Below are positions 2,244 through 6,164 of a stretch of 64,000 bases of DNA, piece after piece. The notes below the pieces were generated by a model. That model searched no databases. It saw only the letters and a program-made list of their open reading frames with translations, and was not told where the DNA came from. Source of the DNA: Phycisphaerae bacterium (GTDB taxonomy: Bacteria > Planctomycetota > Phycisphaerae > Phycisphaerales > UBA1924); the NCBI GenBank assembly GCA_014192545.1, contig BJHL01000002.1:62001-126000 (forward strand), read 5' to 3'. The position numbers and the translations under genes were made by a program. How positions within the stretch are numbered: position 1 is the stretch's first letter; each line of letters begins with the position of its first letter.

Positions 2244-4268
2244 TCAGATCATCGGCCGCAACATTGCTCGCACCGGACTTCCGTCAAACCCCATCAACTT
2301 CAGGGGCGCAGCAATCAACTCGTACTCGCCCGCAGCCACATCACGCAGAACAAGGCCTTCCAAAATTGCAAGTCCCCGCCGCAAAATCGCGTTGTGGGCA
2401 ATCAGTTGCTTGTCAGTGAACAAGTCCACACTCGGCGCATCCACGCCGATGGTGATGACTCCGCGATCCGCCAACGCGTCAACCAATTCGGGCGACAACG
2501 CGGCGAAGTCGGTCGTGAAGTTGTTCGCGTCGCTATATGTTTGCGTCCGTATCAGCACGCGCGGATGCACGATCGACGAGATAGGCGTTTGCAAATCCGC
2601 AGGCATCATCCGCGCGCCGGGAGCCGCGTTCACATCAATCACGTGACACGGACCAACATAGTGCCGCAGATCCATCTCGCCCACGCTCACGCCATCTCGC
2701 CCGTAGTGATTGGGTCCATCGGCGTGCGAACCCAAGTGCACTGTTGCTCGCAAGGCACTCAGCGTGATGTTGTCGCCACGTTTCATATCGCAGACAATCT
2801 CGCGCGACATGGGCGTATCGCCTGGCCATACGCCAATCTTCTGCGTCAGTGCGGGTGATACATCAATGATCGCGCGTTCGCTCTGCTTGCCAGCAACAAC
2901 TTCGCGCAGCAAGGGCTCGGCTTCACGCAGTAACCGCTGATGCCACGCTGCCTCATCGCTCTTGAGCAAGCTCGCGGGCACATGAGCAACCAGGCGATCA
3001 AGCACGCCATCAAGCTCGCGCCCGCGCCGCAGAGCCTCGGCATACGGCACCGTCGAGAAACTTACCAAGTTGTACTGGGGCGTAACCATCGTCGGAAATG
3101 CCGCGTGGATCGTGTGCTCCACTTTCTTGCGATACAAAAACGCGGGCTGTCCAACCTTGTCACGCATCTCGACAAAGTTCGCCAATGCCATGTCCGCAAT
3201 CGCATCAGCATTGGGCTTGCGCAGTTTCTCGAAGTGCTGCAACGCAGCGACGCGATCATGCTTGTACTCACGCAAACAACTCGCAAGTGCCAAGCAGTCT
3301 TCAAACGCCGCGTTCATTCCCTGACCATAAAACGGCACGATTGCATGAGCCGCGTCTCCCAGAATGCAAACTTTCCCCGCGTGTTGCCAAGGCCAGCACC
3401 GCACGGTGACGAGCGAACTCGTCGGATTGCGTTGATAGTCCTCCGCAAGCGTCGGCATGATCGCGGTTGCGTCGCCATATTGCGCTGTGAAGAACGCCTG
3501 TACCTGCTCGCGCGTCTGCAAGTTCTCGAAGCTGTGCTCACCCTTGAAGGGCCAGAACAACGTGCATGTAAAGCTCTTGTCGCGGTTGGGCAACGCGATC
3601 ATCATCGAGCCGCCACGCGGCCAGATGTGCAGCGCGTGCGGCTCCATTGCATACTCGCCCGCGGCGGTCGCCGGAATGTGCAGTTCCTTGTAGCCATGTT
3701 GCAAATACGTCTGGCTGTACTCGAAGCGATCGGTTTTCTGCAAACGTCCGCGCACTGGCGAAAACGCACCATCCGCCGCGAGAATGAGCGATGCTTCAAC
3801 CCGCACCGTACCGTTCATGGTGGAGAACGTTGCTGCGGGCCCGTCGATATCAACATCCAAGCACGTATGATCAAAGTGAAAGCTGATGTTGCTGTAGTTG
3901 CTCGCTGCGTTCAGCAAAGCAACATTGAGCCCGCCGCGCGAGACCGAGTTGATCGCATCGTTGCTGTCGTGGCTGTACGCCAAGTATACGGGCGACGTAT
4001 TCGTCACCGGGTGGATCATCCGCCCGGGCATGCGAATCGCTTCATCACGCATCACCAGTTGGTCGAGGCCTGCGCCGGCGAGTCCCGCGATGCCTCGTGC
4101 GCTCAGCGCGAGATTGATCGACCGCCCACCGACATACCCCGCGCGACGTGGATCACTCCGCCGTTCATACACGCTCACGCGATAGCCATCTCGCGCCAAG
4201 TAACACGCCAGCAGCGAGCCAGCCAGCCCTGCGCCGATGATGACAATGTGATTCGTGTCGATACTCAT
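2244..4268 (-). CDS. Kynurenine 3-monooxygenase fused to kynurenine formamidase (KMO-KynB)
   Basis: One uninterrupted 674-residue protein with two enzymes. Residues 1 to about 455 are a flavoprotein hydroxylase of the kynurenine 3-monooxygenase type: FAD-binding GAGLAG at 12-17, the internal ADGAFSPVRG segment near 165-174, and GDAAHAIVPFYGQGMNAAFED at about 304-324. After a linker around residue 462, residues 466-674 are a cyclase-family kynurenine formamidase: HLGSHADGPNHY at 511-522 supplies the His/Asp metal ligands, followed by VDAPSVD at 609 and the HNAILRRG...ILEGLVL segment at 626-641. The fusion would both hydrolyse N-formylkynurenine and hydroxylate kynurenine. It lies 80 bases downstream of the kynureninase gene, same strand, so three pathway steps sit in one likely operon. 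The first enzyme (tryptophan dioxygenase) and the next (3-hydroxyanthranilate dioxygenase) are not in the window. Confidence 0.88.
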   Translation of the reverse strand: MSIDTNHIVIIGAGLAGSLLACYLARDGYRVSVYERRSDPRRAGYVGGRSINLALSARGIAGLAGAGLDQLVMRDEAIRMPGRMIHPVTNTSPVYLAYSHDSNDAINSVSRGGLNVALLNAASNYSNISFHFDHTCLDVDIDGPAATFSTMNGTVRVEASLILAADGAFSPVRGRLQKTDRFEYSQTYLQHGYKELHIPATAAGEYAMEPHALHIWPRGGSMMIALPNRDKSFTCTLFWPFKGEHSFENLQTREQVQAFFTAQYGDATAIMPTLAEDYQRNPTSSLVTVRCWPWQHAGKVCILGDAAHAIVPFYGQGMNAAFEDCLALASCLREYKHDRVAALQHFEKLRKPNADAIADMALANFVEMRDKVGQPAFLYRKKVEHTIHAAFPTMVTPQYNLVSFSTVPYAEALRRGRELDGVLDRLVAHVPASLLKSDEAAWHQRLLREAEPLLREVVAGKQSERAIIDVSPALTQKIGVWPGDTPMSREIVCDMKRGDNITLSALRATVHLGSHADGPNHYGRDGVSVGEMDLRHYVGPCHVIDVNAAPGARMMPADLQTPISSIVHPRVLIRTQTYSDANNFTTDFAALSPELVDALADRGVITIGVDAPSVDLFTDKQLIAHNAILRRGLAILEGLVLRDVAAGEYELIAAPLKLMGFDGSPVRAMLRPMI

Positions 4269-4348: not shown

Positions 4349-5626
4349 TCAACTGAACACCTCACTCATCACCGTCACCATCCGCCAGACATCGTGATAC
4401 GAGTTGTACAGCGGCGCAGGGGCAACGCGAATTACGTTGGGCTCTCGAAAATCGCAGTAAACTCCGCGTTCCAGCAACCTGTGTGAAGTCTCGCGAGTTG
4501 CTCCATCAATGATCAGCGACAACTGTGCCCCGCGCTGAGCGGGATCCGTCGGTGTCAGCACGTGCATTCGCTTCGCAACGGGCGATGCCGCCAGAAGTCG
4601 TTCCAAGTACGCCGTGAGTGCCACAGACTTGCTCCGCAACTTTCCAATCGCCGCTCGATCAAACAGCGCCAGAGACTCGCGCAGCGGCGCAAGCGCCAGT
4701 ACGGGCGGATTGCTCAGTTGCCACGCATCGGCCGATGCAACCGGCGTGAAATCAGGCCGCATCTTGAAACGCGTCGCCGGGTCGTTGCCCCACCAACCCG
4801 CGAAGCGTGGTAGCTGAGCGGCCGCCGATGCGTCGCGCGTGTGCCGCTCGTGGACAAACGCGCCGGCGACCGCGCCAGGCCCGCTGTTGAGATATTTGTA
4901 CGAGCACCACGCCGCGAAGTCGCAGTTCCAGTCGTGTAGCTTCACGTGAGCATTGCCGGCGGCGTGCGCCAAGTCCCACCCCGCAACGATGCCTTGCTCC
5001 TGCGCAAAGCGAGTAATCGTCGCGATATCAAACAACTGCCCCGTCAAGTAGTTCACGCCCCCCAGCATGACGAGCGCAATCGCACCGCGCTCACGATCAA
5101 TCGCGGCGAGAATGTCATCGGTCCGCAGCGTCGCTTCTCCTTCTCGCGGCTTTAATCGTACCAGTGCATCGCGCTTCTCGAAGCCGACAAGCCGCGAGTG
5201 GAAATCAATCTGACTCGCCGCCGCGTATGAGTCTGACGGAAACGCGGTGTCCTCAATCACGATCTTGTACCGCGTTTTCGTCGGTCGATAAAACGACACC
5301 ATCAGCAAGTGCAAGTTCGTCGTGAGCGAATTCATCGCGACAACTTCATGAGGCAGCGCACCCACAAGCCGGGCCAACGGTTCGCGAACTTCCTCGTGAT
5401 AGGGCAGCCACGGATGCTTGGCCGCAAAGTGTCCCTCGACGCCCAGCCGCGCCCAGTCATCGAGTTCCTGCTCCAACGCCGCGCGCACGCTCTTGGGCTG
5501 CAACCCCAGCGAATTGCCGACAAAGTACAACGTCTCGCCGCTCTTGCTCTGCGGAAAATGAAACTCGCGGCGCAGCGGCGCAAGCTCATCTCGCTGATCC
5601 TGCGCACGTGCGAAAGCCTCGCTCAT
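4349..5626 (-). CDS. kynU: Kynureninase
   Basis: A PLP enzyme of 425 residues that cleaves (3-hydroxy)kynurenine to (3-hydroxy)anthranilate and alanine. Family landmarks: YFVGNSLGLQPKSVRAAL near the N-terminus, the NSLTTNLHLLMVSFY segment, GWDLAHAAGN, the PLP lysine in WCSYKYLNSGPGA, and FAGWWGNDP. The start is set at MSEAFARAQDQRDEL because it aligns with the usual beginning of kynureninases; in-frame ATGs at 5665, 5650 and 5707 would give longer N-termini, the last overlapping the divergent deaminase start. No strong ribosome-binding site decides between them. It is the first gene of a likely operon with the KMO-KynB fusion. Confidence 0.92.
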   Translation of the reverse strand: MSEAFARAQDQRDELAPLRREFHFPQSKSGETLYFVGNSLGLQPKSVRAALEQELDDWARLGVEGHFAAKHPWLPYHEEVREPLARLVGALPHEVVAMNSLTTNLHLLMVSFYRPTKTRYKIVIEDTAFPSDSYAAASQIDFHSRLVGFEKRDALVRLKPREGEATLRTDDILAAIDRERGAIALVMLGGVNYLTGQLFDIATITRFAQEQGIVAGWDLAHAAGNAHVKLHDWNCDFAAWCSYKYLNSGPGAVAGAFVHERHTRDASAAAQLPRFAGWWGNDPATRFKMRPDFTPVASADAWQLSNPPVLALAPLRESLALFDRAAIGKLRSKSVALTAYLERLLAASPVAKRMHVLTPTDPAQRGAQLSLIIDGATRETSHRLLERGVYCDFREPNVIRVAPAPLYNSYHDVWRMVTVMSEVFS

Positions 5627-5705
5627 GTCGCCCGCCGCTGCCACGCCCATCGCTGCGTTACTCATGGCGAACGGTAGGAATCCATCGCCGCGCGTACGCT
5701 CGGGC

Positions 5706-6164
5706 ATGGATCAATCCTCCATCGACCGCCTCGCCCTCGACGCCGCCTACGAGCAAGCCCGCAAAAGCAAACGCGAAGGCGGCATCCCCATCGGCAGTGC
5801 CCTCGTCAACCGCGATGGCGTCATCGTCGCACTGGGCCACAACCTGCGCGTGCAATCAGGCGATAGCACGGCCCACGCTGAAACTGTCTGCATCCGCAAC
5901 GCCGGTCGACGGCGCGATTGGCACACGCTCATTCTCGCAAGCACGCTCAGCCCCTGCGCCATGTGCAGCGGTACCGCCGTGCTACACCAGATTCCGCGAG
6001 TAGTCATAGGCGAGAACAAGACTTTTCAAGGCCGCGAAGACTGGCTCCGCGCCGCCAAGATCGAAGTCGTGAATCTCAATGACCCACGCTGCATCGCCCT
6101 CATGCAAGAGTTCATCGCCGCCAAGCCCGATCTGTGGAACGAAGACATCGGCATTCCCGAGTAA
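5706..6164 (+). CDS. Yeast-type cytosine deaminase / nucleoside deaminase family protein
   Basis: A 152-residue zinc deaminase. Zinc and catalytic motifs are HAE (in STAHAETVC) and SPCAMC. Beyond the motifs it resembles the fungal cytosine deaminase Fcy1 more than guanine or tRNA-adenosine deaminases: the GGIPIGSALVN start region, GHNLRVQ, IPRVVIGENKTFQG, and the ending KPDLWNEDIG, which mirrors the WFEDIG tail of the yeast enzyme. The expected reaction is deamination of cytosine to uracil; a related base substrate is possible. The gene is divergent from kynureninase across a short gap, so the two promoters may share control. Confidence 0.82.
   Translation: MDQSSIDRLALDAAYEQARKSKREGGIPIGSALVNRDGVIVALGHNLRVQSGDSTAHAETVCIRNAGRRRDWHTLILASTLSPCAMCSGTAVLHQIPRVVIGENKTFQGREDWLRAAKIEVVNLNDPRCIALMQEFIAAKPDLWNEDIGIPE

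Follow-up and report, generated by a model that had tools for sequence, protein, structure and literature searches.

A predicted two-domain kynurenine monooxygenase-formamidase in a family of Phycisphaerales

Described enzymes and the fused gene

Kynurenine is a metabolic branch point. Kynurenine monooxygenase (KMO) is a drug target; its human form has a C-terminal segment that anchors it in the outer mitochondrial membrane, and obtaining it in soluble form is difficult (PMC3969302). The KMO of Pseudomonas fluorescens (PDB 5fn0, 6fox) ends with its C-terminal helical domain, and its kynurenine-binding residues are R84, Y98, F238, P318, F319, H320, G321, N369, M373 and Y404 (PMC5477544). The characterised kynurenine formamidases of the KynB type (PDB 4cog, 4cob, 4co9, 4cz1) are free-standing dimers with subunits of about 23 kDa, in which the active sites are shared between subunits (PMC4243253).

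The window, by which we mean the whole stretch of 64,000 nucleotides analysed here, comes from the draft genome of a Phycisphaerae bacterium (3.66 Mb in 15 contigs, 94% complete), and in it both enzymes are encoded by one gene on the minus strand (2244..4268). The frame runs from 4268 to 2244, starts with ATG and has 674 codons with no internal stop, and its 674-residue product matches both enzymes in Pfam and in the PDB. The N-terminal part carries FAD_binding_3 (PF01494) at residues 8-359 (3.9e-24) and matches KMO 6lkd over residues 6-426 (5e-98, PDB sequences), while Cyclase (PF04199) is found at residues 468-615 (6.1e-17) and residues 467-672 match the kynurenine formamidase 4cog (about 2.2e-47 to 2.2e-46, PDB sequences), the nearest PDB entries of this domain all being KynB. 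An earlier sequence-only reading had described a complete KMO and a complete KynB-type domain in one open reading frame at this place, and these full-length matches, on the minus strand, bear it out. The arylformamidase model TIGR03035 (NCBIfam) is covered over its whole length at 203.0 bits, just below the cut-off of 223.05 that serves as a naming rule; on the basis of the catalytic residues and the PDB matches we place the predicted formamidase domain with KynB despite this score.

The fused gene lies 80 bases downstream of kynU, the first gene of the operon, which encodes a predicted kynureninase (4349..5707, minus strand; TIGR01814 at 445.6 bits, the cut-off being 246.4). An extracellular solute-binding protein (137-2182) is encoded on one side and a cytidine/adenosine-deaminase-like protein (5625-6164) on the other, both by plus-strand genes, and the operon therefore appears to consist of two genes only. 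The claim that a kynureninase at this distance makes one operon for three consecutive steps holds at the level of predicted functions. The kynureninase is far nearer the human enzyme than the Pseudomonas enzyme (1.8e-113 and 5.7e-50, respectively, PDB sequences) and shares with the former, in the printed alignment read by eye, Ser75, His102 and Asn333, which we take to mark a preference for 3-hydroxykynurenine. The arrangement resembles the kynU-kmo-kynB operons of related Planctomycetota, many of which hold the three genes in this order, except that there kmo and kynB are separate.

Catalytic residues and the structural model

Reference residues for KMO (PMC5477544) and for KynB (PMC4243253) were mapped onto the fused protein through HMMER alignments. 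Nine of the P. fluorescens residues (R84, Y98, F238, P318, F319, G321, N369, M373 and Y404) are identical in the fused protein, where R84, Y98, F238, N369, M373 and Y404 correspond to R83, Y98, F238, N364, M368 and Y399. The sole difference among the mapped substrate-site residues is Tyr314 in place of His320, a position at which yeast KMO also has Tyr (PMC5477544). The zinc and active-site residues of BaKynB (H50, H54, D56, H60, S149, D151, H161, E173, D198 and W20; PMC4243253) are all found in the second domain: the binuclear zinc ligands H50, H54, D56, H161 and E173 correspond to H511, H515, D517, H625 and E637, and the active-site residues H60 and S149 to H521 and S613. The metal motif HLGSHADGPNHY that had been pointed out at residues 511-522 is confirmed, with His511, His515, Asp517 and His521 on KynB positions. 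The FAD motifs noted in the same reading are likewise intact, with the GxGxxG and GD features of the fold present.

The window protein was aligned with the 25 fused loci, which include its own copy, and over these 26 rows the mapped KMO and KynB residues are invariant save at two positions, namely that of P. fluorescens H320 (25 Tyr, 1 Phe) and that of BaKynB W20 (23 Trp, 3 Phe), where the substitutions are conservative. Gly12, Gly14 and Asp305 of the FAD fold are invariant as well. The residue mapping and the invariance in the fused set rule out the loss of metal or FAD residues of either activity.

The AlphaFold2 monomer model (48 sequences; mean pLDDT 92.4, pTM 0.74) is confident over both domains, with residues 462-464 falling below a pLDDT of 50 between them. 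In a VIA-align comparison that covered residues 3-461, residues 6-461 align with P. fluorescens KMO (Z 51.0, rmsd 2.3, 438 residues), and the KMO part of the model scores a Z of about 50 to KMO structures. The model aligns through residues 455-457 of the P. fluorescens enzyme, with the C-terminal helical domain unique to KMO present, and because of this placement the helix at residues 439-460 is the last helix of KMO and not a linker. The KMO domain, including this helix, thus corresponds to residues 6-461 (2886..4253, minus strand). In a Foldseek search the remainder of the model matches KynB 4cog (E 3e-21, TMt 0.91), and the formamidase domain, with its zinc ligands and catalytic His and Ser kept, extends over residues 467-673 (2250..2870, minus strand). 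Unlike the P. fluorescens enzyme, which ends after the helical domain, the modelled protein continues into the formamidase after a linker of about five residues, at about 462-466 (2871..2885, minus strand), the point of lowest confidence in the model; and KynB, elsewhere free-standing, here forms the C-terminal portion of a longer polypeptide. In the alignment of fused proteins the interdomain interval varies from 33 to 54 residues (38 in the window protein), and its end has no conserved sequence.

Distribution and history of the fusion

In the GTDB family to which the window genome belongs, matches are found in 80 of the 163 genomes, and 24 genomes from 14 genera, the window's included, have both domains in a single stop-free frame, the fused proteins being mostly 56-67% identical to that of the window. 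Many other genomes of the family have separate kmo and kynB genes, often adjacent and following kynU. The samples of the class (397 genomes) and of the phylum (392 genomes) yielded no stop-free two-domain match outside the family, with the proviso that these counts are those of samples in which a fusion interrupted by a large insertion might show up as two matches. In G754, which belongs to a neighbouring family, a span over both domains is interrupted by one TGA. In a scan of GTDB contigs, the best 80 of 445 relatives include fusions in records assigned to Phycisphaerales, Phycisphaerae and Phycisphaeraceae, and one on a contig labelled Verrucomicrobia isolate SZAS-18 (L032:4764-7016); the latter nests among Phycisphaerales sequences inside the fused clade, and reflects either a transfer or a mis-binned contig. 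Of the named records, those with the fusions nearest to the window's are for the most part Phycisphaerales. No relative turned up when viral contigs were searched with the KynB domain.

Within the window's own genus the operon is patchy, as two of the three other genomes (G001 and G002) lack any match to KMO or KynB at an E value of 1e-15. An insertion in the KMO domain near the position of window residue 203 splits the alignment in L009, L173, L174, L142, L027 and L166, among which are both fused and separate forms. Some candidates are, or look like, separate genes: in L051 (Candidatus Obscuribacterales) both halves match, but they are two adjacent genes, and the in-frame interdomain stops of G087, G129 and G150, considered together with that of G754 as possible sites of readthrough, look like those of ordinary abutting genes, with an ATG as the codon right after the stop in G129.

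We found no paper describing a KMO-KynB fusion in the open-access literature that was searched. The sequence-only reading had not regarded such a fusion as standard and had allowed that it might be a common known one; its occurrence, in the genomes and contigs sampled, in only one GTDB family and on one further contig of uncertain label, and the lack of a description in the open-access papers searched, leave the latter unsupported. Each of the two enzymes is well known; the joined architecture appears to be new and looks like a genuine lineage-specific two-in-one enzyme.

In a tree of both domains from 71 loci, all 25 fused rows fall within a clade of 32 (support 100/95), the remaining seven rows of which are separate genes, and four changes between the two states are needed. 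Constraining the fused rows to a clade of their own is rejected (p-AU 5e-5), which excludes a single origin without later change. The tree fits a single fusion with about three later splits as well as it fits a few fusions, and the four changes are not divisible with certainty between the two kinds of event. In several relatives with separate genes within the clade (G140, G141, G143 and G086) the kmo stop shares bases with a possible start of kynB, in the form GTGA or ATGA, where fusion or splitting needs only a small indel. Probably the fusion arose once or a few times when the stop codon between neighbouring kmo and kynB genes of a kynU-kmo-kynB operon was lost, with some later splits.

The separate KMOs of Planctomycetota differ from the fused ones in a further respect. 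Under a criterion of hydropathy only (a 19-residue mean above 1.7), 28 among 62 separate KMOs carry a hydrophobic tail at the C-terminus, compared to none of the 25 fused ones, and none of the 32 rows of the fused clade has it, the separate rows included. The tail sits where eukaryotic KMO has its membrane anchor; the 28 tailed loci include L010, L011, L013, L022, L023, L137, L144, L145, L157 and L158. We infer from these sequences that an anchor-like tail was lost before the fusion.

Proposed role and competing explanations

We consider it very probable that the fused protein is a bifunctional enzyme of tryptophan catabolism, although the sub-threshold TIGR03035 score and the two genomes of the genus that have no match count against this. 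The C-terminal domain, with its binuclear zinc site, would convert N-formylkynurenine to kynurenine and formate, the N-terminal FAD domain would use NAD(P)H and oxygen to hydroxylate kynurenine to 3-hydroxykynurenine, and the kynureninase of the same operon would release 3-hydroxyanthranilate and alanine. As characterised KynB enzymes are dimers with shared active sites, the fused protein probably dimerises through KynB and carries two KMO units, with the second and third pathway steps standing in reverse order along each chain. Fusion would set formamidase and KMO at a ratio of 1:1.

The window genome also encodes a tryptophan 2,3-dioxygenase and, on one strand of contig C3 (L192:10021-11943), a 3-hydroxyanthranilate 3,4-dioxygenase followed after 9 bases by an ACMS decarboxylase-like gene with ACMS decarboxylases as its top PDB matches (4ofc, 4.7e-109), so that, on predicted functions, the two dioxygenases and the decarboxylase make the route complete. 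Among PDB entries, the human ones match this decarboxylase more closely than the bacterial ones do. The encoded steps reach ACMS, the precursor of quinolinate, and it could be argued that the fused protein serves the de novo synthesis of NAD from tryptophan. We regard this as improbable, since the genome that has the kynurenine pathway also encodes NadA of the aspartate route (L194:8483-9925), and the decarboxylase whose gene directly follows that of 3-hydroxyanthranilate 3,4-dioxygenase would drain ACMS away from quinolinate; the presence of both makes tryptophan degradation the most likely role of the predicted pathway. That the two domains were joined by an error of assembly or sequencing might be suggested by the draft state of the genome, but the same stop-free fused frame occurs in 23 other genomes and in L032, which leaves such an error with a negligible probability; recurrence across the 24 genomes and L032 likewise excludes a frameshift or a chance joining.

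The KynB site might hand kynurenine straight over to the KMO site with little of it released, and a fused enzyme that channels or preferentially delivers kynurenine would commit carbon to 3-hydroxykynurenine before kynureninase could cut kynurenine to anthranilate. One step directly follows the other and the linker of the window protein would hold the domains close, yet the variable interval and its unconserved end speak against a conserved or tight tunnel, the monomer model at its pTM does not fix the orientation of the domains, and KynB acts as a dimer (PMC4243253) while the model is of a monomer. We therefore think channelling unlikely, and preferential delivery that commits carbon in this way equally doubtful. 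Loss of a stop between adjacent operon genes may instead have left two enzymes on a string with no functional consequence, a reading that we rate at slightly less than an even chance: intermediate gene arrangements are abundant, separate pairs occur inside the fused clade and the linkers vary, but retention in 14 genera over a long divergence suggests that the fusion carries at least no cost, and perhaps a benefit. For the bifunctional enzyme that we favour, such a benefit may lie in co-expression, perhaps also in sparing kynurenine from cleavage to anthranilate, and the fusion is not indispensable, because seven separate pairs sit within the fused clade.

We know of no earlier natural bifunctional enzyme for the formamidase and hydroxylase steps, and if channelling is true this one would be the first. 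With the activities predicted here, the tail-free fusion would be a self-feeding KMO that starts from N-formylkynurenine. In the lineages that carry it, the fusion lets one test in nature whether linking successive enzymes of a pathway alters the flux through a branch point, and, with fused and separate versions lying close together in one clade, the two states may be compared directly.
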